Assembly (NCBI RefSeq): GCF_037996645.1
Contig: NZ_JBBMXV010000007.1
Span: forward strand, 1 to 32,971
Direction: 5' to 3'
DNA from: Halalkalicoccus tibetensis
GTDB lineage: Archaea; Halobacteriota; Halobacteria; Halobacteriales; Halalkalicoccaceae
Length of the DNA: 32,971 nt
In this document: positions 12,861 to 24,693 of the stretch, piece by piece
How positions within the stretch are numbered: position 1 is the stretch's first letter
Layout: each line of letters starts with the position of its first letter
Notes under the pieces: model-generated
Seen by the model: only the letters and a program-made list of their open reading frames with translations
Databases searched by the model: none
Told to the model about the DNA's origin: nothing
Program-made: the position numbers and the translations under genes

Positions 12861-13286
12861 ATGAGCACTGCCGCTGACTCGCTTGACTGGAAATCAATCG
12901 AGATCCTTCGCGCGCTTGCCGACGCCGAGACAGCACTCACCACAACGGAGGTCCGGGAGGCAACCGACCTTAGCGAGAATCGGATTATCCTTTATCGGAT
13001 TACTGAATATTTGGAGCCACAGGGACTCGTCTCAACCTATCAACCGGAGGCCACTGGGACGGTCGTTCCTGCTAAGGAGATCTCGCTCACAGAGTCCGGT
13101 CACGAGCTCACGACTGATCTCGAGACAACAGACGAGACTGGGCTGACGCTCTCCGATCTCCCAGAAAAAGTACACCACGCGCACTCTGTCCAACGAGATC
13201 CTTACGAATGTCGCCGACTAATGGTCCAAGGGTATTGTCAACGATATACTCGACGACGTATTCCGGTGTGTAGTAGGATCCAGTAG
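12861..13286 (+). pseudogene. Winged-helix DNA-binding protein, 3' end lost
   Basis: Residues 1 to about 105 form a MarR/PadR-like winged helix (DWKSIEILRALADAETALTT, then TEVREATDLSENRIILYRI and a wing), ending ELTTDLETTDETGLTLSDLPEKV. Beyond about base 13165 the frame runs antisense through the truncated restriction-modification gene and becomes Arg-rich nonsense (ECRRLMVQGYCQRYTRRRI). The original C-terminal part, probably a coiled coil in such haloarchaeal proteins, is therefore missing. A shortened protein could still be made. The start at 12861 is supported by the TATA box about 28 nt upstream and the tandem operator-like palindromes. It may have been autoregulatory (inference). Confidence 0.6.
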
Positions 13287-14724
13287 CTTTCCGCTCACCA
13301 GAGCCTGTTGTAAGATAGACCTCTCCTGTTTCCACGATGATCTCATCGCCTTCATCGGGAATTACGTACTCGCCATCATTGAGCGCTAACGGTTCATCGG
13401 CTACATTGAGTTGATACTCGAGTAGACCTTCGTAGATACTCCCAAGATGGCGCACGTCGAGCGATGAGTAATCGACGAATATCTTTCCACCCTCGCTCTG
13501 ACTACGAGTGAGCAATTCGATCACGCGGGCGAGATACGCATTACCGACCTCGTGGTTAGCGAGAAAGCGCGCTTCTTGGCTGTCGTTCGTATCCGGATCT
13601 GTACGGAATAGCCCACCGTTGTAGGCTGGAATATAGAGGTCTTCCTCTGGAATACCCCGGGACCGACTACCCTGATCGATAAGCTTGAACAGCTCCTCCA
13701 AGCGGGACCAGAGGTTATCCTGCCAATTTCGATACTTTGGATCCGCGCTATCGAGTTCCTCGGCGATTTCCTGTTTGAGCGAGTTCAGGCTGTATGACTG
13801 CTCGTAGATCTCGTTGTCCGTATTGAGCAGGTCACGTCCTTCACTCTCGGCATACAGGACGAAGATAAGCCGATACAGATAGATGAGCGAACTATCGTGT
13901 ATCTGATCGAGATCGTCTTCGTCGAGGTCATTCTCCGGATACTGGAGGAAGCCTTCGGAGAGGACCTTGATCGCCTCGTAGATGTTGTCCTGAAGGTCCT
14001 CCCCTAATTCCTGTGCGAATACGTTGCTCTCCCCGTAGACGTCGTCAAGGAAACTATCACCGCTTGCGTCCTCGAGAAACGCTTCGTGGCGGAAAAACAG
14101 GTAGAAATACTTGAAGTCCTCGAGATCGCCCTTTTCAAGGACGGTCGGAAGATCGATCTCATAATAGGAGTCCAATCGATGACTCGTAGGGCCGTAGTAT
14201 AGTCGCCATTTCTGTCCATCGGTGAGTACAGCCCACTGCGCGTCATCGACTTCCTGTAGGTAGACGTGAATCTGGTAGCTCGGGTTCTCGAAGTCACGTT
14301 CGTGCTCACCACTTCCACGGGTATCGAGCGGCCGCCCCCATCGTTTTGCGTCTGCAACGGCGACGGCGTTCTTGTAGAAGTCGCCACCCTCTTCACGACG
14401 TTCGAACGCGCCGCGGGCCGCTTCCTCCGATTCGAAGAAGCCGTAATCGGGTCGGCGCTGGGTTCGGCTGGTACTCTCTTCGACCTCGAATGGAATACCC
14501 AGCTTCCGGAACATCGGCCGGATGAACTTCTCTTCAAGCTGGGATTCGTTGCGTTTGGGTGCTGTACTCTTCTCGCGTTCCCAGAGCTCGTTGATCTCCT
14601 CGTACGCCTCGAGGAGCTCGTCTTCGCTGATCTCGTCCCATTCTTCGGTTTCGGGGAGGTGCTCATCAAGATAGTAGTTAGAAAAGAGGTCACGATTCGT
14701 TCGGTAGCTGAGTGCTGTCTGCAT
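13108..14724 (-). pseudogene. Type II restriction-modification protein, methyltransferase part lost
   Basis: The first ~520 residues are the N-terminal part of a fused restriction-methylation enzyme of the Eco57I/type IIG kind. A nuclease-like core is visible with RPDYGF followed by VAVADAKRW, a PD...(D/E)xK pattern. A helical region follows, then the typical lead-in to the methyltransferase (GSYYTPEYVVEYIVDNTLGP then LVGDIRKDLVGQSA). The frame then leaves homology near base 13180, before the SAM-binding motif, and ends in unrelated sequence antisense to the winged-helix gene. The methyltransferase and target-recognition domains are gone, so the product cannot modify DNA and probably does not cut specifically. 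The start ATG at 14724 lies 5 nt past the stop of the AbrB-like gene, so the two form an operon. Confidence 0.8.
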
Positions 14725-15147: not shown

Positions 15148-16956
15148 CTAAGCAAACTCGCTGAATGTCTCTTTGATGTGCTCGCGAATAAGTTGTTCCC
15201 GCTTGTCAAGGAAGTCAAAGTAGTTCTCAATTATATGGAGATCCGGATCGCTTGGAATGAGGTGCCGGTCGTAGTATTCCTCGTTTCGACTAGAGAGCCA
15301 CTCTCCGAAGGATTTGTCCTGCTTACCCGCATTCTCTCCTTCCGTAATTAGCTGCAGATTCGAGATAGAATGACGGCTGTTCTCGTACTGTTTAGCCACA
15401 GAACGCTCAAAGCCATACTCTTCAACGAGCACATCAGCTTCAAGCTCCTTTTGCGGGAAAATATGGTCTCGATGGTAGTCCACCCCTTTCCGCACGGCAC
15501 TCGGGAAATAGATCAACGAAAGCAATAGGAACGACTTCTGGGACCGATAGGTCGTGTCCTCAAGCAACGAATCCACAACTTCTTCGCTGAACCCAACGAC
15601 TTTCCCTCGACCACGCATCCGGCGATGAATCTCCTCAAGCGGGAAGCTGCCATCCGATTCTTGAATAGCTATTCTGGCATCTGCCAGTACTTCGTCTGGG
15701 CGGGAATTGAACGTCCCATTGAGTAGCGCGGATGTTAGCCAGTAGTGGATACGGCGTCGTATCTCCATTCCGTGTTGCGAATCCCAGCTGAGGTCCGGGT
15801 TCTGATAATAGAGATAGTACGCAATCGGGATGAGTGCGTTATAGCTGGTCAGACTCCGTCTGCTAAGACCGAACTCCACAACAAGATCAAGAGCACTCTC
15901 AATTGCATCCTTGTATCTCCCCGATAGCCACGTATCCTTCATCACACCAAGATTGTGGTTAGTGAAGTTCGCGATCCGATACTGCGGATCAAGATCAGAG
16001 AGAACGAGAAGCGACTTTAGAACGAAGTCAATCCCAAATCGGAAGTTCTTGTCCTCGTGGCGTTCGTTCAGTGAATCCACGAAATCCGTGATCTGCTCGC
16101 GAGCATCTATCCCGTCTTCACCTTCCGTCCACCGTGCTGTCGCCATCGAAAGCAAGATTTCAGACTTGCTTAGCGGCGTTCCGCCATCGTTCGTCCGAAT
16201 GAAGATATCAAGAACCCGCTCGTGATTTTTCGTCGTCTCTTCGTGGTACTGGAGACTTGCACTATCGGTAATAGAGTTGTGCAGCGTGCGGAGGTTCTCA
16301 CTCGCAACCCACCATTTGTCTTTCCCGAAGTCTTTGAGGTCGAGTTCGTTGATGAGCTCCCGGACGTCTTCCTCAGGATCCAGCTCGAGGATATCACCAA
16401 CAGGGAACCAGTATGTATTGTCAGTTGGCTCCGGTTGTTGGCGCTTGAAATCGAACTCGTACTTCAACCCCATCTCGTCATCCAGTTCCTCATCAGGATC
16501 CAAAAACAGGTTAAAATAGAGCTGTTTGTTACTCCACGCGCTGGCATTCCGCCGTTGAGCGTATTTTTTCTTCTCAGCATATGTGCCTTTCAGTCCAATA
16601 TAGAATGCAGTGAGGCGTTGCTGACCGTCGAGAACTAGCTTCTGAGTCTCTGGAAGTTTTTCTGTCGTAGGAACCTTCGGGTTGTGGTAATCAACATGCT
16701 TGAAGTTCGGGTCGTCCGGGTAGACGCTATCGTTGATGTAATTTCTAATGAATTTGTACTTTATCTGATCGTCAGCTGTTTCGTCTTTAACCCGCCAAAG
16801 GAGGAACGATCCTATCGGATAGTCTCTGAGTACCGAATCAAACAGCTTGATAATCTGCTCTGTATCCCAGACGAATTCACGCTGGATCGCCGGAAGAAAG
16901 ATAGATTCGTTGAGATCATCAACAGCCTCACGAATACTCATCGACTTGTGAGCCAT
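15148..16956 (-). CDS. DUF262/HNH (GmrSD-like) protein, putative type IV restriction
   Basis: This 602-residue protein has both halves of a GmrSD-type enzyme. The N-terminal DUF262 domain shows QREFVW (25-30), DYPIGSFLLW (45-54), DGQQRLT (110-116) and RTNDGGTPLSKSEIL. DUF262 proteins are ParB-like and use NTP hydrolysis. The C-terminal DUF1524/HNH-type nuclease (about 490-560) shows HRDHIFPQ, followed by NSRHSISNLQLI and a GKQDKSFGEWL segment. Known GmrSD proteins cut glucosylated or otherwise modified phage DNA, so a defence role is likely. The gene stands alone with its own upstream gap and looks intact. The ATG at 16956 gives the expected N terminus. Confidence 0.85.
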   Translation of the reverse strand: MAHKSMSIREAVDDLNESIFLPAIQREFVWDTEQIIKLFDSVLRDYPIGSFLLWRVKDETADDQIKYKFIRNYINDSVYPDDPNFKHVDYHNPKVPTTEKLPETQKLVLDGQQRLTAFYIGLKGTYAEKKKYAQRRNASAWSNKQLYFNLFLDPDEELDDEMGLKYEFDFKRQQPEPTDNTYWFPVGDILELDPEEDVRELINELDLKDFGKDKWWVASENLRTLHNSITDSASLQYHEETTKNHERVLDIFIRTNDGGTPLSKSEILLSMATARWTEGEDGIDAREQITDFVDSLNERHEDKNFRFGIDFVLKSLLVLSDLDPQYRIANFTNHNLGVMKDTWLSGRYKDAIESALDLVVEFGLSRRSLTSYNALIPIAYYLYYQNPDLSWDSQHGMEIRRRIHYWLTSALLNGTFNSRPDEVLADARIAIQESDGSFPLEEIHRRMRGRGKVVGFSEEVVDSLLEDTTYRSQKSFLLLSLIYFPSAVRKGVDYHRDHIFPQKELEADVLVEEYGFERSVAKQYENSRHSISNLQLITEGENAGKQDKSFGEWLSSRNEEYYDRHLIPSDPDLHIIENYFDFLDKREQLIREHIKETFSEFA

Positions 16957-17415
16957 GGCTAATACAGGCGAAGTCCAACCAATGAATCTTTGCTAAGTCT
17001 TCCTACTGAGGTACGGCTCAAGAGAGATTGATTACCGCTGATAACGCGTCACTTACTCCAATTCCAAAGAAGATACCAATATAATTCTACTCGTACCCGA
17101 TATGGATGATCCCAGTATCGGGGGTCAGTCTGATAATCTTTACCTACAAGGCGCCGAGGTTCTGATTCGTTGAGATACTAGTAGTGCGCGTTGCCTCTGA
17201 GGAACGCATTGCTTGTCTCGCACTCATAGCAGCAACAGTCCTTAAGGAGCCGTGCAATTAGCAACCAGTCTATAGACAGTCATTCGTCGAGAGTCACTGG
17301 AGGCATAGCGGGAGTAGTCCCATCATCCAATATGAACTCTCGTCAGGAACTCCTAGTGACTACTCGCATCTTTCGTACATCTCGTTTTAATCCGTCTTCT
17401 CTTTTCTGCTAGTGG
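16957..17415. other. 459-bp gap without a recognisable gene
   Basis: No open frame with protein-like sequence is visible. The left end should carry the promoter of the DUF262 gene on the minus strand. The rest is moderately AT-rich with no clear hairpin or repeat. Confidence 0.5.
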
Positions 17416-17958
17416 TTATAGAGCCCGTCTTCCAGTTAGGACTTCTTGCGCGTAATAGACAGCTCCATATGAGAGGTCTTCGTCCGTAGATTCGATCTTT
17501 TTCCTCAGGTTCCGTGCATTCTCATTGGTCTTCTCAGCCTGTTCTCGCAATTCTATTTCTTTCTCTCTTTTATGTTGTTCAGGTTCCGTAAAATGCAGAT
17601 GAGCAACTATATCTCTCCCGTCGGTAACTATCTCTCTTGCTCGCTGTCGTTCTTCTCGCCGGTAGTTAGGATACTCTCCTTCTATGTGTTCCTCAAGTTC
17701 GTCAACACATTGGAAAATATCATCTAATATTGGCGATGATTCTTCTTCCTCCTCATACATGTTGAGTTCTTCAAGAGCTTCATCAAGTTCTTCATATCTC
17801 TCATGCAAACGTCGACACCATTTTCTGTCGGTTTGATATTCATCTTTCATCACTGGTTTTATCACTCCGATGATGTAGCCGAATACTGTACCAATGATAC
17901 CAATTCCTAGCTCAAGTAATCCTATCCCGAAAATGCCTATTTGCAACATATAGAACAC
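17416..17958 (-). CDS. Membrane-anchored coiled-coil protein, unknown function
   Basis: This 180-residue protein has a hydrophobic N-terminal segment (residues about 4-36, rich in Gly/Ile, perhaps one long or two short helices) and then a highly charged, mostly helical cytoplasmic part. Strong coiled-coil character is seen in RYEELDEALEELNMYEEEEE and in REQAEKTNENARNLRKKIES. I recognise no family. The start is GTG at 17958; ATG three codons later (17949) is an alternative that keeps the membrane segment. Position between a GmrSD-like gene and a CBASS operon suggests defence-island cargo, but nothing in the protein itself shows a role. Confidence 0.6.
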   Translation of the reverse strand: MFYMLQIGIFGIGLLELGIGIIGTVFGYIIGVIKPVMKDEYQTDRKWCRRLHERYEELDEALEELNMYEEEEESSPILDDIFQCVDELEEHIEGEYPNYRREERQRAREIVTDGRDIVAHLHFTEPEQHKREKEIELREQAEKTNENARNLRKKIESTDEDLSYGAVYYAQEVLTGRRAL

Positions 17959-18110
17959 TGCTCTACTCCTATATTCTCACTAACACAGGAAAACTGATTC
18001 GCCTCAGATCAATCTCTTTGTGCAGCGGATCGCCCTCGAAGGACAGGCGATGTCACAAGGAATGGGCTCGATTACCGCACACCGATCGAGACCATCGTCT
18101 GCACACTGAC

Positions 18111-18464
18111 TTACAGCGTACGACCGCGATCGGGGGGTACCCCTTTTGGCGACTGGTGGCCCAAGAACATCTGAATCAAGCCCCGGATAAAATCCCCATG
18201 CTCGATCTCGGAGAACAATGACCGATTCGAGTCATAGCGAAGGAGCTCAGTCCTGATCCCCTCCTGTTCCGGTGGGTCCCACGGATGCGGTCGATCAGCT
18301 GGAAGCTTCTCTCGGTAGTCCTCTTCCAAAAACGTCGCGACAGTTCGGGATGCAATCTGACGAAGGTAGCTGAAATCAGTCTAGTAAGCTGCACTCGACA
18401 TACATCCCATAATGTGTTTGATCAGCAAATCACCAATCTCGCGAAACTCGTCGATGCCGTCTCC
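18111..18464 (-). pseudogene. Broken gene with an in-frame stop, unknown family
   Basis: One frame reads DEFREIGDLLIKHIMGCMSS then AAY, a TAG (18381-18383), and continues in the same frame as TDFSYLRQIASRTVATFLEE, DYREKLPADRPHPWDPPEQE and LFSEIEHGDFIRGLIQMFLG. The sequence on both sides of the stop has strong protein character, so this looks like a gene with a nonsense mutation. Its 5' end runs into the end of the Cap15-like gene without a clear start. The last ~15 codons (QSPKGVPPDRGRTL) look unrelated to the rest. I do not recognise the family. It could be a former third or fourth gene of the CBASS operon. Confidence 0.4.
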
Positions 18465-18511
18465 TGAGAAAACCACCAGCCGCAAGTTCCAAGCCAAGTA
18501 GTGTATTAACA

Positions 18512-19198
18512 CTATTTCTGGGGCTCGTCGCTCACGCGAGTGAATTCCGCCGCCCCATATGTCGTCTTTTGGCCACCGTCCTGCTCCGAGGCACGGGCTG
18601 GCCCGGTGTAGTAATAGCCCACGAGTCGGTCGTCCGACTCCCGATACGTGAACCGTGTCGTCCCGTCGTATGGTCCTTCATCATCCGCCTGCTCGTCAAC
18701 GTCTGCACCCTCGTTCTCGAACAGGTAGGAGAGCTTTGGATGGAGTATCCCCTCGGTCTGGAAGTGGGCTCCTGTGCTGACCGATGGGGAGCGCTCTGTT
18801 TCGAAGTGGATGATGATTTTGCTCCACGTCTGCTTGATGTTCAGAGTAGCAATCATCGGCTGGTAGCCGCCATCGGCAAGGTAGTCGTCCGGGATTTCGC
18901 TCTCGTAGCTGGTCCTGATTTCGCCCTCCCAGTGACCGGTGAGATCGGGAACGGCGACAATGAAGTCTGGCATCCAGGGCTTCTTCCAGAGATGTTGGTC
19001 GAACACGCGACGGAACAGACCAAATACGACCCCAAAGGCCAAGCCAGGAACTACCAGCGGTGGAATCTCGAACGGTATTTGCTGGTAGAGCCACGGGAAG
19101 ACGTAAGCGTTCAGGGCGACCACGACGACGAACGCGACAACGCCCAGGATCGCCAGAAAAGTCGAGCGGAACTCGTTATCGCTGGAATAGACGTGCAT
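18512..19198 (-). CDS. cap15: CBASS effector Cap15-like (2TM plus beta-barrel)
   Basis: This 228-residue protein has the Cap15 (S-2TMbeta) layout. Two transmembrane helices (about 13-36 and 46-64) are followed by a beta-rich domain starting with the conserved LTGHWEG (86-92). Further typical strands are NIKQTWSKIIIHFETE.S, ILHPKLSYLFEN and RLVGYYYTGP. Known Cap15 effectors bind a cyclic dinucleotide in the barrel, oligomerise in the membrane and disrupt it, causing abortive infection. The start ATG (19198) lies within the end of the CD-NTase gene (23-bp overlap), so the pair is translationally coupled, which strongly supports a CBASS operon. No missing domain is seen. The match is from fold layout and motifs, not a search. 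Confidence 0.82.
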   Translation of the reverse strand: MHVYSSDNEFRSTFLAILGVVAFVVVVALNAYVFPWLYQQIPFEIPPLVVPGLAFGVVFGLFRRVFDQHLWKKPWMPDFIVAVPDLTGHWEGEIRTSYESEIPDDYLADGGYQPMIATLNIKQTWSKIIIHFETERSPSVSTGAHFQTEGILHPKLSYLFENEGADVDEQADDEGPYDGTTRFTYRESDDRLVGYYYTGPARASEQDGGQKTTYGAAEFTRVSDEPQK

Positions 19199-20087
19199 TC
19201 ATACTATTGGTGCTGGCGTTCTCCCAGTACGTTTCCAAGGCATCGACAAACAGTTTAGCGTGCCAGGTGTCCCATTTCGTGCGACCACTCCCGAAAAGGT
19301 CGGTCACGCCATTCTGACACTTCCACCCGGAGAAGTCTGTATCTTTCAGATAATTAACGATCTTGACGTATCGTTCCTGCAGGTCGTCTACGTACCGGCC
19401 CGGCGGGACGTTGTACAGGAGACACTCGATAAAGTAGGACGCCACGATGTCGTCTGTGATGTACCCATCTGCGACGATCTCCTTGCGGGCGTTTTTGAAC
19501 ATCCGCACGGTCTCTTTATACAAATCGTCGGTGTCGTCCTGTTTGTCCGACCCGTGGTCCCGATGGAGTGTCGGATAATTTATGACCGAAGAAATCGAGT
19601 CAGTTGGCCAGAAGATGATTCCGTCGTAACCTTGGGGATAGTTGTAGTAATGTTTGTGTTGGACACACACCAGCACGTCAGCGTCAAGTGGGAGGCCAGG
19701 TGCCGAAACCTCGATAGCGTTCCCGGACGGGTCAAACGTCCCCTCGGGGTACGTATCCTGCAGAACGCTTGATACATCGTCCCGAAATTCGTTGTAGTCA
19801 TAATCGTACTCTTTGACGTCCACGTCCTCCTGGTCTTCCGGATCAAGGTCGTGGAGGTTGAAGTACTGGAACTCGTCGAGCCGAACGATGATATCGACGT
19901 CGCTCGAATCGCGGATGATCGTGTTGTTCGCGTACGACCCTTGGAGGAAGTCGTGGAACTCGACGTTGTCGAGCGTGTCGCTGTCATTGAGTGCGTTCCG
20001 AATCTTCGTGTGGGTGTCCTGTGCTGACTGGAGAGCGGCTCGTTTCGGGTCAGTCCAGCTTTCGAGCGTGTCCTCATTGATCGCCAT
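19176..20087 (-). CDS. CBASS cyclic (di)nucleotide synthase, CD-NTase family
   Basis: This 303-residue protein is a cGAS/DncV-like nucleotidyltransferase that makes a cyclic oligonucleotide alarm signal during phage infection. The polymerase-beta-type active site is complete: G50-S51, the acidic pair D63 and D65 in SSDVDIIVRLD, and a third acid in LPLDADVLVC (D137 most likely). The C-terminal helical half (KETVRMFKNARKEI..., DIVASYFIECLLYNVPP) fits the SMODS/OAS-like core. It overlaps an upstream 111-aa gene by 14 bp and the Cap15-like effector gene by 23 bp. No ancillary Cap2/Cap3 or HORMA/TRIP13 gene is visible, so this looks like a minimal type I CBASS. The product nucleotide cannot be told from the sequence. 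Confidence 0.88.
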   Translation of the reverse strand: MAINEDTLESWTDPKRAALQSAQDTHTKIRNALNDSDTLDNVEFHDFLQGSYANNTIIRDSSDVDIIVRLDEFQYFNLHDLDPEDQEDVDVKEYDYDYNEFRDDVSSVLQDTYPEGTFDPSGNAIEVSAPGLPLDADVLVCVQHKHYYNYPQGYDGIIFWPTDSISSVINYPTLHRDHGSDKQDDTDDLYKETVRMFKNARKEIVADGYITDDIVASYFIECLLYNVPPGRYVDDLQERYVKIVNYLKDTDFSGWKCQNGVTDLFGSGRTKWDTWHAKLFVDALETYWENASTNSMNARLFQR

Positions 20088-20409
20088 AGTAGCCTCCGAG
20101 GGAAACTGGCATCATTTCGAGGATGGGCACGAAGGTCACAACTCCCGAATTCGCCTTGTTAAGACCTCTCTGTAAGTGCCGATTGATAGCTGAACTCGCT
20201 CCAGTCCTCTCTTGCTCTAGCAAGCGGCTGTCAACTTCCCGATAAAGTTCGTTGATCCCGCGACTTGTTTCGCTAACTTGTTCACGCGTCTTTCGAATAG
20301 GAATCGCCTTTGTGGGAGTGCGAACCGATTTCTCTCCAATTCGGAGGGTGCGATGAGGGAGAAGGATATCGTCCGCAAATGAGTCGGTCGTGATCTCGAG
20401 GGCAGTCAT
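20074..20409 (-). CDS. Small unknown protein, first gene of the CBASS operon
   Basis: This 111-residue protein begins MTALEITTDSFADDILLPHR and has the phrase IGEKSVRTPTKAIPIRKTRE, then a charged helical part (INELYREVDSRLLEQERTGA). It ends with MPVSLGGYYGDQ inside the first codons of the CD-NTase gene (14-bp overlap). I do not recognise a family. The abrupt hydrophobic end (SGVVTFVPILEM) suggests it may be the N-terminal piece of a longer ancestral protein, cut when the CD-NTase gene was joined. As the leader gene of the operon it may also be a CBASS-specific regulator or inhibitor. The ATG at 20409 follows a plausible TATA box about 28-33 nt upstream. Confidence 0.6.
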   Translation of the reverse strand: MTALEITTDSFADDILLPHRTLRIGEKSVRTPTKAIPIRKTREQVSETSRGINELYREVDSRLLEQERTGASSAINRHLQRGLNKANSGVVTFVPILEMMPVSLGGYYGDQ

Positions 20410-20531
20410 CTGTTAGCACCTGCTAATTGGGGTCGTTGCATTATAGTCATTATGCTGTCAATGACGTAGCTATCGATAGTGACGTAACAAACAGCACAAT
20501 CGTAAATAGATAGCAGTGAGGGGAAGTAAGC
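20410..20531. promoter_or_regulatory. Divergent promoter between CBASS operon and CARF-like regulator
   Basis: This 122-bp region has a TATA-like TAAATAG at 20503-20509 for the plus-strand regulator and an AT-rich CTATAATGC (minus strand, about 20436-20444) for the CBASS operon. Between them, the perfect palindrome CTATCGATAG (20470-20479) is flanked by direct repeats TGACGTA at 20462-20468 and 20480-20486. The symmetric arrangement suits a shared operator at which the divergent winged-helix regulator could control both directions. Confidence 0.5.
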
Positions 20532-21353
20532 ATGGATGTTGAGCAACGGTTGCACCTCATGCCGCTTGGCTACGAGTATGATCGTATCGTGGAGGCGGCT
20601 GATCAGCAACAAGCCGATTTTGTGATTCTCTTAGATTATCAGCAGACGGATGCCGCGAAAGAGGACGACGATATCGTTGCGCCGGAATATCACGATGATA
20701 TCCGGGAGGATCTGAAGGAGAGGGGAATCGGAGTCGCAACTGTCCCATGCGATCTATTCGATCTTTATGAGTCACTTGGCACAATCGCGGAAATTGCAAC
20801 AGCATTTGAGGATCATAACGTGCACGTGAACCTCGCATCTGGAAGCAAAGTTACTGCTATCGGTGGGATGATCGCCTGTATGGCAACCGGGGCACGTCCG
20901 TACTATGTTTCAGCAAAAGACTATGCTGGTGGTACTAAGGAGCCGGTAGCAGGAAACGTTGGAGAGGTCTATGAGTTATCGAAATATCCGATCCAACCCC
21001 CTGAACCTCAGCAAATTTCATGTCTTGAATACATTGTTGACGAAGGACCTGTTGCCAAAAAACGGCTGATTGAACACGGAGAGAACATAGAGCTCCCATT
21101 CGTAGCGTATTATGACGCATCAGGCGTGAAAGATGAGGTCCGTGGGAAGTATCGCCGACTCCAGTCTCAGATCATAAAGCCTCTATTGGAACAAGAATAC
21201 ATTACTATTCAAGAGCGAGGTCGCCATCAGTTCGTCAAAGCCACAGAAAGCGGCAAGAATACCGTTGAAGCGTTTCATTACCTAATAAACGGAGAGATTG
21301 AGGAAATAGGACTTGACCTCTCTGACTTCCCATTTCTATCGGAAGACGACTGA
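20532..21353 (+). CDS. CARF-like / winged-helix regulator (HFX_2341/DUF6293-like)
   Basis: This 273-residue protein has an N-terminal Rossmann-like CARF-type domain (about 1-150). It starts RLHLMPLGYEYDRIVEAA, with a DFVILLDY strand and the ligand-loop-like VHVNLASGSKVTAIGGMIAC. A C-terminal winged helix follows (about 160-265: QQISCLEYIVDEGPVAKKRL, then RRLQSQIIKPLLEQEYITIQ). CARF domains bind cyclic oligonucleotides, best known from type III CRISPR. Here no CRISPR genes are present; instead the gene is divergent from a CD-NTase/Cap15 operon, 122 bp away. A regulator that reads the CD-NTase product, or a related one, and switches the operon is a reasonable inference. The ATG at 20532 sits about 26 nt after a TATA-like box. 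Similar regulators are common in haloarchaea elsewhere, so linkage by chance is possible. Confidence 0.75.
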   Translation: MDVEQRLHLMPLGYEYDRIVEAADQQQADFVILLDYQQTDAAKEDDDIVAPEYHDDIREDLKERGIGVATVPCDLFDLYESLGTIAEIATAFEDHNVHVNLASGSKVTAIGGMIACMATGARPYYVSAKDYAGGTKEPVAGNVGEVYELSKYPIQPPEPQQISCLEYIVDEGPVAKKRLIEHGENIELPFVAYYDASGVKDEVRGKYRRLQSQIIKPLLEQEYITIQERGRHQFVKATESGKNTVEAFHYLINGEIEEIGLDLSDFPFLSEDD

Positions 21354-21512: not shown

Positions 21513-21797
21513 TCAGGCTTCAAGTGCCCGCGCAGCGTCCGCAGAAACGATGACGTTCCAATCCGAGCACGTCACCTGCTCGTCGCTCACGTCCGCGATC
21601 AGCGCTGCGAGCGCGTCAAGGTAGTCCGTCGACCGATCGTCTCGGAAGTGAATCGTGGCCTTGTGATCGTAGCGTTGGCCCCGATTTTTGAGATAAACAT
21701 CGACGAACTCCCGTCGGATCGATTCGGGAGCACCGTCAAGATAAAATGGAAGCGTGATCGCGGCATCGGTGTTATACTTTTGATATGACGTCGTCAA
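21513..21797 (-). CDS. Small protein overlapping the HEPN-type gene
   Basis: This 94-residue protein (for example LPFYLDGAPESIRREFVDVY, then ATIHFRDDRSTDYLDALAAL) has normal protein character and an acidic haloarchaeal composition. No family is recognised. The only start is a TTG at 21797, just after an in-frame stop. It lies 26 bp inside the end of the 973-aa gene, so translation is probably coupled. The tight overlap suggests a functional pair such as effector and small partner or antitoxin (inference). It could also be the remaining end of a longer gene. Confidence 0.55.
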   Translation of the reverse strand: MTTSYQKYNTDAAITLPFYLDGAPESIRREFVDVYLKNRGQRYDHKATIHFRDDRSTDYLDALAALIADVSDEQVTCSDWNVIVSADAARALEA

Positions 21798-24693
21798 GTC
21801 CCTTCAGTACTTCACAGTGTACGATCTCGCTGCTAGTTAACTCAGGTTCTTCTGCCGATGGCTCGAGGTCAGGAGGTAGATAATAGATCTCCTGTTCTTG
21901 GAGTTCGCCGGTATACTGTATTTTTGTACGATCCGGCTGTGCTTTTCTTAGCAACCGGAGATAGTATCCATCGTCTAACCAGCGATCTATAATGACAGCC
22001 GTTGGAGTCACAGTGAACAATAGTTTCAGCAGTTCAATCAGCTTTTCACGGATCTGTTCATATTCAGTTTCCGAGTCCGCAACTCGCAACGTGTTTCCAT
22101 GAGCGATATCATTCCGGATCTTATTTATAGAGATACCATGGATTATCTCCTCCTTATCTAGCTCGATAATTCTATCAGCACAGTCCAACTGTTGGCCGGG
22201 TTCCAACCTGAAGAACCCTAAGAGGTCTCCTAGTGCGGGATCTTTCCAACTTGGTTTATCGATTCCTTGTCGTTCATAGAGTTCCGTTTTCCAAGCGTCC
22301 CCCCACTGCTTCTTACCATGGTACTCTACAACGGCAGAAAGCTGTCTATCTAGACAATACACCGCTAGATCCCAGACTAAGCTATCGTAGCGAACAGTGT
22401 TTCCTTCATCTTCCTCAACTCTCACTAACCCATCGTAGACATTCAGTGGCAGCTCCCTCTTCCACCGATCCGCGATTGACGCCTTTTGCAGCGGCAGGAG
22501 ATCCTCTAGCTCGCCGCTATCAATCTCATCTATGCTCGCTGGGATCAACGAGTCTTTCAGAGATTGTTTTACCAGTCTGTCTAGTAGTTCTTCCTTAACC
22601 TCCCATCCGCGGAGCCGCTGCGCAGCAAGGATTTGGGTTACAGCTGCTGTATAATCACTCGGAATGTCTAAGATGTGCTCGTCCTGGGCAACATCACCTC
22701 CTAACTCGTGGTACACTTCAGACGGATCAGATAGCTGCCCCTCGTGATAATCTGTCGATGTATCGGCTAGGATGCGAAGAATCCGTTGATCTCTATCCAA
22801 GGACGCGAGCGTTTCGATCTCCTCGATCTTCTGGGCTGCCTGCCGATAATCGCCTGCGAGGAGTGCCCCTCTCGCCCGACAGGTAAGAGCTGCTCGCGTA
22901 TGATAGCCGCTTCCCTTGGACTGCGGGAACTGGTCGGCATACTGTTCATGAATATCGGCCGCTTCGTCAAACTCCCCCTGGAATTCGGCCTCAACGGCTT
23001 CCAGTTCAGTAATACGCCCACGTACCCCATTTTGGAGGTCATCACGGTCAACGCTGTCAAAATACCCGTTTGCCTCGCCGAACTTCTGCTTTGTCTCTGC
23101 TACCACGTCGCCCAGTTCTTGTGACTTTAACAGGTGATGTGCCTCCAGTTCTGCCTGCCAACCTCGTAACAAGTTCAACGCGTATTCTTGCTGGTCCGGG
23201 TTGATATTCTTTAAGTCCGTCAGGAGGTCAATACGTTTTTTGAGGATATCGACTCCCTCTTCGAACTTCTCCTGTTGCTTGTAGATAGTGACATCGGCCT
23301 CTGTTTTATGCCGGACAGGAGGGATCAGATAATTGTATCGGGATCCGATCCATGCAGAATCCTGTCGTTGAGCAATATCGATCGCTCGCCGATATTGACT
23401 CGCAGCCCGTGACGGATTGTGAAATTTGAATAGATGGCCTTCCGTCAGGTTTGCATAATAGTTGGCCCGTTCTTCGATCTCGGTCAGCCCACCTAGTATT
23501 TGAGCGACGGCGTGCGCGCTCGAAAAGAGCAGTGGCTGCAGATCCATGTACTGACTTCTTGCTTCGTAGTCTCTGCCCCGCCAATACAGGTAATTCACTA
23601 AGATGAATTTAAATTCGTGATCGGATTGCTCGGCTGCTTCAACGAGGAGTGGCCGGAAGCCATCTGCTTTATCACCATATTGGTCCCGATCGAGTAACCC
23701 CTCTTTCGTAGTCTTGTAATCCAATCCCTCTGGAACGTCTACCCATGTCTCGATAAGTACTCGTGCCGTTGCTAGATCTCTCTGCTCCACCAGTGAGGCC
23801 AAATGGACAGCGAAGTAGGGTTCCGGAATATCCGAGCAGCATTCAAGAAATTCTGTCTCATAAATCACAGGTTCGAGGTACTTGCGCCTATTCTCTTGAT
23901 ACAGCGCCTCTGGGTTTTCCGTATAACGATATTCAAGAAAATGCATCACCACCTCTGGTTTCTTGATCTCCGCTAAGTTAGGGAACTGATTGTAAGTGGA
24001 TACTCTTTCCCACAGCTCAAATGCAGTGCAGAGCTGCTGATGTTTGCCCTTGCTGTTGGCAGTAATCATGTTTCGAAAAGAGTCAAGCCGGCTCCCCTCC
24101 AAGGCGTGTTTCAACCGTCCCGAATATCCCATAAGCCGGTTTCGCACGGTAAGATAATCTTTAAAATTGAGACAGATGGCTGCATCACGGAGAATACGAT
24201 AGAAGACCGCTACTGGCGTTTTATCGTACAGTGCCTCTGCTTGTTCAATTATTGGTTCTAATTCCTTTCCTTGGACGATATCCTGACAGAGATGCAGCGC
24301 TTCAACAGAAGGGATAGTCAACTGTAGTTGCTCCTCGAAACGCTCTCCGACCACATTTACTGTTATATTCTGTGAATCCCTCTCCTGCAAAGGGAATAAT
24401 TCGAGAGATAGTGCAGTATTCCTATTAGCCAACGATACACGGGCTGGATTGAGGATCAAGTTCTTGCCTGTTTGAATTAGAACTTCCGCCCGTATGCATT
24501 CAGCGCCTGTAATAGTGAGATTCAAATCTAACAGCAGTTTATTAGTATCAAACGGACTTTCGGTCTCGGCGAATCGATAGACTGCATCATATTCGAGGTC
24601 CTCTCTGGGAGACCGTCTCCATGATTGGTACTGCATGAGTGATGTGACAATGACCCATACATCCTCTTGAAATCTACGGAGCCCTGTGTCCAT
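21772..24693 (-). CDS. Large helical-repeat protein with a C-terminal HEPN-type motif
   Basis: This 973-residue protein matches no family I can name. Residues about 1-140 are beta-rich (NKLLLDLNLTITGAECIRAE, RDSQNITVNVVGE). Residues about 150-720 look like an alpha-solenoid of TPR-like helical pairs (RAASQYRRAIDIAQRQDSAW, EFQGEFDEAADIHEQYADQF). The C-terminal part (about 770-900) contains INKIRNDIAHGNTLR, giving R860-N861-xxx-H865, the RNxxxH active-site pattern of HEPN RNases, between predicted helices. HEPN domains in defence systems cut RNA after activation. A large sensor-like repeat region plus a C-terminal HEPN, next to CBASS and a CARF-like regulator, suggests an abortive-infection effector (inference). 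HEPN-like folds without RNase activity also exist. The ATG at 24693 is clear. Confidence 0.65.
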   Translation of the reverse strand: MDTGLRRFQEDVWVIVTSLMQYQSWRRSPREDLEYDAVYRFAETESPFDTNKLLLDLNLTITGAECIRAEVLIQTGKNLILNPARVSLANRNTALSLELFPLQERDSQNITVNVVGERFEEQLQLTIPSVEALHLCQDIVQGKELEPIIEQAEALYDKTPVAVFYRILRDAAICLNFKDYLTVRNRLMGYSGRLKHALEGSRLDSFRNMITANSKGKHQQLCTAFELWERVSTYNQFPNLAEIKKPEVVMHFLEYRYTENPEALYQENRRKYLEPVIYETEFLECCSDIPEPYFAVHLASLVEQRDLATARVLIETWVDVPEGLDYKTTKEGLLDRDQYGDKADGFRPLLVEAAEQSDHEFKFILVNYLYWRGRDYEARSQYMDLQPLLFSSAHAVAQILGGLTEIEERANYYANLTEGHLFKFHNPSRAASQYRRAIDIAQRQDSAWIGSRYNYLIPPVRHKTEADVTIYKQQEKFEEGVDILKKRIDLLTDLKNINPDQQEYALNLLRGWQAELEAHHLLKSQELGDVVAETKQKFGEANGYFDSVDRDDLQNGVRGRITELEAVEAEFQGEFDEAADIHEQYADQFPQSKGSGYHTRAALTCRARGALLAGDYRQAAQKIEEIETLASLDRDQRILRILADTSTDYHEGQLSDPSEVYHELGGDVAQDEHILDIPSDYTAAVTQILAAQRLRGWEVKEELLDRLVKQSLKDSLIPASIDEIDSGELEDLLPLQKASIADRWKRELPLNVYDGLVRVEEDEGNTVRYDSLVWDLAVYCLDRQLSAVVEYHGKKQWGDAWKTELYERQGIDKPSWKDPALGDLLGFFRLEPGQQLDCADRIIELDKEEIIHGISINKIRNDIAHGNTLRVADSETEYEQIREKLIELLKLLFTVTPTAVIIDRWLDDGYYLRLLRKAQPDRTKIQYTGELQEQEIYYLPPDLEPSAEEPELTSSEIVHCEVLKGLDDVISKV

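Follow-up and report, generated by a model that had tools for sequence, protein, structure and literature searches.

A minimal CBASS operon probably captured by a CARF-regulated bidirectional promoter in Halalkalicoccus tibetensis

The window analysed here is a stretch of 32,971 nucleotides from Halalkalicoccus tibetensis (contig NZ_JBBMXV010000007.1 of assembly GCF_037996645.1). The system in question is a two-gene cyclic oligonucleotide-based antiphage signalling system (CBASS) with a divergent regulator gene upstream of it (Table 1). As recognized in a preliminary description of this DNA, the CBASS genes encode a CD-NTase and a Cap15-like 2TM effector, and they overlap, by 23 bp. The enzyme keeps the residues G50-S51, D63-x-D65 and D137, all invariant in an alignment of eight sequences. 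The effector gene is matched by the 2TM effector model of PADLOC at 1.7e-33, and its product is 82-87% identical to the Cap15 proteins of four close relatives. With a CD-NTase catalytic motif (G-S, D-x-D and a third D) and an adjacent effector gene, the locus is, by its sequence, a minimal type I CBASS, for which messenger synthesis and protection against viruses are predicted. Both genes are under purifying selection as judged from codon comparisons: differences from a relative at the three codon positions number 20, 5 and 93 (mostly third) for the CD-NTase, and 16, 13 and 55 for Cap15. A type IV assignment was considered and rejected, as none of nine window open reading frames (ORFs) scanned matched TGT and the CD-NTase begins with MAIN rather than MG.

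Table 1. Features of the CBASS locus and its upstream region, in window coordinates
Feature	Position	Strand	Remarks
CBASS block	18411-20120	-	86% DNA identity with genomes G125 and G258
Cap15-type effector, 228 aa	18512-19198	-	membrane N-terminus and cyclic dinucleotide receptor domain; PF18153, 2.1e-18 (Pfam)
CD-NTase, 303 aa	19176-20087	-	SMODS PF18144, 4.2e-9 (Pfam); PADLOC cyclase PDLC00788, 1.7e-87
ORF, 111 codons	20074-20409	-	~96 N-terminal residues of a ~400-aa haloarchaeal family, then ~15 residues from the CBASS-block leader
Junction of regulator/promoter/ORF block with CBASS block	20113-20130		both homologies stop here
Putative TATA-like element, ORF-CBASS transcript	20441-20446	-	sequence and haloarchaeal promoter spacing
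Imperfect palindrome, 52 bp, candidate operator	20449-20500		centre 20474.5; contains CTATCGATAG and two TGACGTA repeats
Putative TATA-like element, regulator gene	20502-20508	+	sequence and haloarchaeal promoter spacing
CARF-wHTH regulator, HFX_2341-like/DUF6293 family, 273 aa	20532-21353	+	CARF ~4-152, wHTH ~152-257

The regulator belongs to the HFX_2341-like/DUF6293 family, with both of its domains above the curated cut-offs: PF19810 at 7.8e-39 (133.3 against 30 bits) and the winged helix-turn-helix (wHTH) PF22665 at 6.1e-25 (88 against 27 bits). An AlphaFold2 model built from 58 sequences has a mean pLDDT of 90, in which the CARF part superimposes on cA4-bound Can2 (Z 14.9, root-mean-square deviation (rmsd) 2.3, 121 residues) and cA6-bound Cam1 (Z 14.6, rmsd 2.9, 133 residues), and the C-terminal part on MarR (Z 11.8, rmsd 1.9, 76 residues). 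The best chains in Foldseek are cA4- or cA6-bound Can2, Cam1 and Csm6, with cA4-bound Csa3 third on the list, while a sequence-profile search of the Protein Data Bank (PDB) gave no convincing chain (best E 0.23). The CARF-like domain named in the preliminary description is thus borne out by structure prediction. In the model the regulator has a CARF fold of the cyclic-oligoadenylate-binding kind, ligand binding itself being predicted; N100, invariant in the 58 aligned sequences, is compatible with binding a ligand but no proof of it. Differences from the H. jeotgali counterpart number 23, 11 and 125 by codon position, a pattern of purifying selection. The protein was rejected as a Csa3 (TIGR01884, 20.9 bits against a cut-off of 60.2), and none of the four families listed by Pfam is a WYL sensor domain.

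The regulator is indeed divergent from CBASS. The distance of 122 bp previously given, however, leads to an overlooked ORF that lies between regulator and CD-NTase and overlaps the CD-NTase start; the start codons of CD-NTase and regulator are 444 bp apart. Scans with Pfam, PADLOC and further profiles gave this ORF no credible family match. Relatives occur in 13 other genomes of the 391 searched, as open frames of 388-516 aa in 12 and as a stub in H. jeotgali, and a profile of 13 family proteins covers only positions 1-96 of 400 in the ORF (E 8.5e-26). The C-terminal part of the family was found nowhere in the window, and by the profile coverage the ORF is an N-terminal fragment, which rules it out as an intact CBASS gene. 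Comparison of the family with the PDB and with the TGT-like family gave nothing credible (0.6% for the latter, by profile), the TGT model did not match seven full-length relatives, and 23 pattern matches in viral contigs yielded no confirmed relative. Full-length family genes stand divergent from a PF19810-type gene in genome G329 and on contig 29 of G269, indicating that CARF genes of two clades have met this family; the scanned loci of its other members have no adjoining CARF gene. At two loci (L120 and L121), members lie beside a gene that, by eye, resembles an integrase.

The ORF runs across a junction between two blocks of different ancestry. DNA homology to the CBASS of the two nearest relatives stops at 20120, and homology to most members of the ORF family stops at about 20116-20134. 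Upstream of the CD-NTase start, the window shares only about 33 bp with the two nearest relatives and about 57 bp with G233, and this shared leader includes a GGAGG just before the start codon. The small amount of shared upstream DNA, together with the GGAGG, suggests that CBASS may now depend on a captured upstream promoter. The CBASS block recurs at 80-82% DNA identity, over slightly different ends, in G226 and G233. In these two genomes and in G125 and G258, another CD-NTase-Cap15 pair lies upstream of it in divergent orientation, as is also the case on a Natronomonas marina plasmid; G125 and G258 carry no PF19810 gene on the CBASS contig. The only short repeat at the block edges is an 8-mer, and in a comparison of the left flank (16957-18600) with plasmids one record matched, over 7% of the query.

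Two CD-NTases of the window type occur together in nine of 28 loci (L063-L066, L070-L075), while the window locus has one. Four of these double loci are divergent pairs, four are convergent pairs (one split over two contigs) and one is tandem; each enzyme of a pair has its own Cap15.

The other block can be followed into a sister species. H. jeotgali matches 20313-21337 at 83%, a segment that takes in the regulator gene, the promoter and ~32 initial codons of the ORF, whose start carries a 2-base deletion there. Behind this promoter, on plasmid 1 of strain B3, are genes for an AAA_11/12 helicase, a hypothetical protein, a MazG-like protein, a Schlafen-group-3 helicase and an endonuclease/exonuclease/phosphatase. 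This operon (1772-7727 of L285) fills the place of CBASS, and its helicase is MkoA-like in PADLOC. Since the same block precedes a helicase operon in H. jeotgali, the regulator and promoter appear, from sequence comparison, to be older than their CBASS neighbour. The idea that regulator and CBASS evolved as a pair is not supported by this comparison: the same regulator, promoter and ORF start serve another operon, and the CBASS block occurs elsewhere without the regulator.

Between the window and H. jeotgali, 8 of the 122 intergenic bp are different (93.4% identity), whereas among the fourfold sites of the regulator gene 50 of 111 are (Fisher p 4e-12); conservation of the promoter thus greatly exceeds that of neutral sites. 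Its central feature is the imperfect palindrome, in which 19 of 26 pairs match, a value not once attained when the interval was mononucleotide-shuffled 20,000 times; the corresponding H. jeotgali palindrome has 18 of 26. The shorter palindrome first described, CTATCGATAG (20470-20479) with flanking TGACGTA repeats (20462-20468 and 20480-20486), was confirmed in position. Taken alone, CTATCGATAG lies within chance expectation (one match with at most one mismatch in the window, 1.27 expected) and was dropped as significant in itself, the 52-bp palindrome being the larger feature. The 3.6-Mb assembly has a single exact TGACGTA-N11-TGACGTA; allowing two mismatches at most gives 30 matches, against 17 for a reversed control. 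Both TATA-like assignments presuppose haloarchaeal promoter spacing, and the elements lie ~31 bp either side of the palindrome centre. This symmetry suggests, on sequence grounds, a single candidate site serving both directions of transcription. Matches to sigma-70-type promoters were disregarded, as this is not the archaeal promoter type and only two were found where 2.8 were expected.

A pairing of the window regulator with the window type of CD-NTase has so far been seen only once. A CD-NTase search of the 391 genomes matched 31, of which 28 were retained after setting aside three with weak matches (E 5e-4 to 9e-4); the 28 loci include some at the end of a contig (G051, G104, G307). All 28 genomes have PF19810 genes, which are near the CD-NTase only in the window genome and in G199, and the G199 regulator is of another clade. 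Exact linkage is limited to one genome in 28. On a simple density estimate, at least two linked loci in 28 would arise by chance with a probability of ~1%. The reverse scan, of 80 named CARF loci with flanks of up to 8 kb per side (shorter in 13), was for the window CD-NTase type, Cap15 and the ORF family, and found none of them. Another 20 CARF loci, from partly overlapping species, have none of these genes except the H. jeotgali ORF stub.

A parallel was found in another group of CBASS operons. The SMODS family (PF18144) matched 74 of the 391 genomes, 47 of them over the cut-off. PF19810 was searched in 37 of the 74, the other 37 comprising five of the window type (covered separately, or the window genome) and 32 with weak matches, and PF19810 genes were found divergent from SMODS CD-NTases. 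Twenty-four fetched loci have the order TGT-like gene, SMODS CD-NTase and SLATT-like effector, labels that rest mostly on profiles built in this analysis; a PF19810 gene stands at the TGT end in nine (G199, G258, G224, G114, G040, G107, G220, G087 and G322, Salinigranum rubrum) and not in 15. A simple density estimate predicts about 0.08-0.15 such linkages, with the caveat that the 24 loci are not independent (G107 and G087 are nearly identical, G224 and G114 close). The survey of divergent CD-NTase operons and HFX_2341-like genes proposed in the preliminary description returned the exact pair once and, among these 24 loci, a similar arrangement, from another CARF clade, nine times. With CARF genes of that clade beside SMODS operons, the view of the window linkage as an accident without parallel was dropped.

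The TGT-linked loci vary in detail. Frames are split in the CD-NTase of G114 and the TGT gene of G035; in G322, the CARF gene runs across the record start of a circular plasmid, and the TGT and CD-NTase frames are broken. The PADLOC TGT model (PDLC00912) matches the first gene in all three loci tested, two with CBASS (9.8e-85 and 1.1e-45) and one without a CD-NTase (4.7e-23). In all eight such enzymes compared at their starts, seven SMODS and one of 437 aa, G comes directly after a start codon (as MG, in one case VG) at the beginning of the frame or close to it, which recalls the MGGS N-terminus that, according to passages of PMC13279940, marks type IV CBASS CD-NTases. The 437-aa enzyme is encoded on a plasmid of Halomarina sp. 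BND7, in the order CARF, TGT, 437-aa CD-NTase, a CD-NTase 42% identical to that of the window, and Cap15. Nine of eleven plasmid records were inspected (all except H73 and H74). At eight further loci CARF and TGT occur together, and no CD-NTase was detected there. Plasmids L282, L283 and L284 carry CARF, a TGT-like gene and further genes in a CBASS-like order, with no CD-NTase detected; a DsbA/thioredoxin-like gene is annotated in two of them, and the set is possibly another defence module. Twelve SMODS loci of a ~382-aa class, compared by coordinates only, have no PF19810 gene within 30 kb.

A tree of 74 regulators, from which seven rows including the G322 regulator had been dropped beforehand, places its nine CBASS-linked members with the widespread chromosomal form in one part and the window regulator in the other (99/97 on both sides). 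From this separation in the tree, the pairing of CARF with CBASS seems to have more than one origin.

Other genes around the locus also resemble defence genes. They include a GmrSD/HEC-05-type protein (15148-16956) and the apparent N-terminal part of a DrmMI/type IIG methyltransferase (13108-14724), and their sequences suggest a defence island with broken members. On the far side of the regulator, 21772-24693 encodes a 973-aa protein that is only weakly similar to HEPN, at its C-terminus, and has two distant relatives on plasmids. Rfam and tRNA scans gave no matches.

The explanation preferred here, which we consider probable, is that a minimal CBASS operon was captured by a CARF-regulated bidirectional promoter. 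What is observed in its favour comprises the domains, the junction, the conserved promoter, the absence of the pair from the related genomes examined and the similar arrangement in another regulator clade. Recombination would have joined the CD-NTase-Cap15 operon to the 5' part of another gene and so put CBASS downstream of one side of a promoter whose opposite side serves the regulator gene. The regulator, probably dimeric, would bind the 52-bp palindrome between the TATA boxes and control its own gene and a common ORF-CD-NTase-Cap15 transcript together, and its CARF domain may adjust this control in response to a nucleotide messenger. Repression is the likelier sign, by analogy with HFX_2341 and CapW (see below). 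Several points weigh against the capture explanation. The regulator-CBASS pair has been seen only once, and a promoter hidden within the ORF might be the one that drives CBASS. Ungapped palindrome tests upstream of 14 other CARF genes (13 TGT-linked, one ORF-linked) were weak or null, with scattered weak values and a lowest shuffle fraction of 0.011 in 42 tests, and no outstanding 9-mer is common to the regions upstream of the 13 TGT-linked genes (at most six sequences, against five in shuffles). The junction might also be an artefact of assembly, as no second copy of it appeared in the 391-genome ORF-family search or in a further search; this is very improbable, given that the reading frame of the ORF is uninterrupted at the junction and that its family homology extends far beyond the point of divergence from H. 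jeotgali.

The strongest competitor, though we rate it as rather unlikely, is that regulator and CBASS are chance neighbours in a defence island, the regulator controlling only itself (and once also the now truncated gene) while CBASS uses another promoter. The restriction of the linkage to the window genome, the fragmentary ORF and the GmrSD-like and other defence-type genes nearby all fit such a view, but an ORF that starts at the conserved promoter is collinear with the CBASS genes and overlaps them, and CBASS retains little of its relatives' upstream DNA. Cap15-type systems use cyclic dinucleotides, while CARF domains mostly bind larger rings. This mismatch counts against a feedback loop in which the CARF domain binds the cyclic nucleotide of its own CD-NTase and retunes the operon, and so does the life of the regulator lineage without CBASS (a helicase operon opposite its closest relative, that of H. 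jeotgali; this CD-NTase type at none of the 80 other CARF loci), which makes it unlikely that the pocket evolved with this enzyme. The loop draws some support from the similarity of the CARF fold to cA4- and cA6-bound proteins and the invariant N100, from the independent CARF-wHTH clade facing CD-NTase operons, and from the failure to find Cas10 palm2 (PF22335) or Cas1 (PF01867) in the 97%-complete assembly, which leaves no type III CRISPR source of cyclic oligoadenylate apparent; on balance it is unlikely. Less likely still is that the regulator senses c-di-AMP from the housekeeping diadenylate cyclase DacZ, tying CBASS to osmotic or general stress. A DAC-domain gene (PF02457) is present in the assembly, and DacZ is discussed as a possible source of the HFX_2341 signal in passages of PMC11434293; the window regulator, on the other hand, does not fall in the clade of the widespread chromosomal form that was sampled. 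Besides the fuller diadenylate cyclase domain on C1, a second and partial one lies at G000:C6:154677-154937.

Taken together, the preliminary description is partly confirmed in its observations and partly supported in its interpretation of a regulator that senses the alarm molecule and adjusts the operon. A wider proposal goes beyond capture at this locus and is offered tentatively: DUF6293-family CARF-wHTH proteins could be a recurrent archaeal counterpart of CapW, set opposite CBASS, reading a messenger and controlling CBASS as well as other, exchangeable defence cargo. The window would then be an independent capture, and the helicase/MazG/Schlafen-type operon of the sister species an alternative load. 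CBASS effectors can kill the host. Sensing of the CBASS messenger by CARF-wHTH proteins that also act on transcription would give nucleotide alarm signalling a branch of gene regulation outside CRISPR. This general hypothesis is directly testable in cultivable haloarchaea at the nine TGT-CBASS loci that have a divergent CARF gene, and better so there than in the window, which itself would exemplify the exchange of a defence operon behind a promoter that is conserved and probably regulated.

No CARF regulator of CBASS is described in the titles and abstract openings of the open-access matches listed, a weak negative, and the literature passages cited in this comparison contain nothing on how archaea restrain CBASS. 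MM_0565 of Methanosarcina mazei is, like the proposed role of the window protein, an archaeal CARF protein acting on transcription; it is reported to affect the casposon cas1 (PMC7465815), not CBASS. The CARF-HTH protein Csa3 of CRISPR systems (PDB 6wxq, 2wte, 6w11; PMC8844856 and PMC8699464) shares CARF, winged helix and a fold match with the window regulator, which differs in falling below the TIGR01884 cut-off and in coming from a genome where no Cas1 was found. HFX_2341 (crr) of Haloferax mediterranei, after which PF19810 is named, is likewise a haloarchaeal protein with a CARF-like and a DNA-binding domain, predicted to respond to nucleotides. It affects many genes, and its overexpression lowers cas transcripts; in contrast to the window protein, it is a global regulator tied to cas genes and transporters, with no CBASS partner in the passages concerned (PMC11434293). 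As for the operon, gene pair and order are those of nearly all related minimal type I loci, from which the window departs in having its upstream region replaced by the ORF/regulator block. The TGT-containing, type IV-like CBASS loci also set a CARF-wHTH gene divergent from a CD-NTase operon, but with another CARF clade, a TGT-like first gene not of the ORF family, and a SLATT-like effector with SMODS enzymes. CapW, a wHTH-WYL protein encoded upstream of and opposite to CBASS, binds a palindrome in the promoter and represses the operon (passages of PMC9122588). Like CapW, the window regulator is a wHTH protein encoded opposite to CBASS and has a palindrome in the common promoter; it differs in that an extra ORF comes first in the CBASS direction and its sensor is a CARF domain rather than WYL; CapW linkage is conserved, with 160 CBASS systems in the same passages, whereas that of the window is single.

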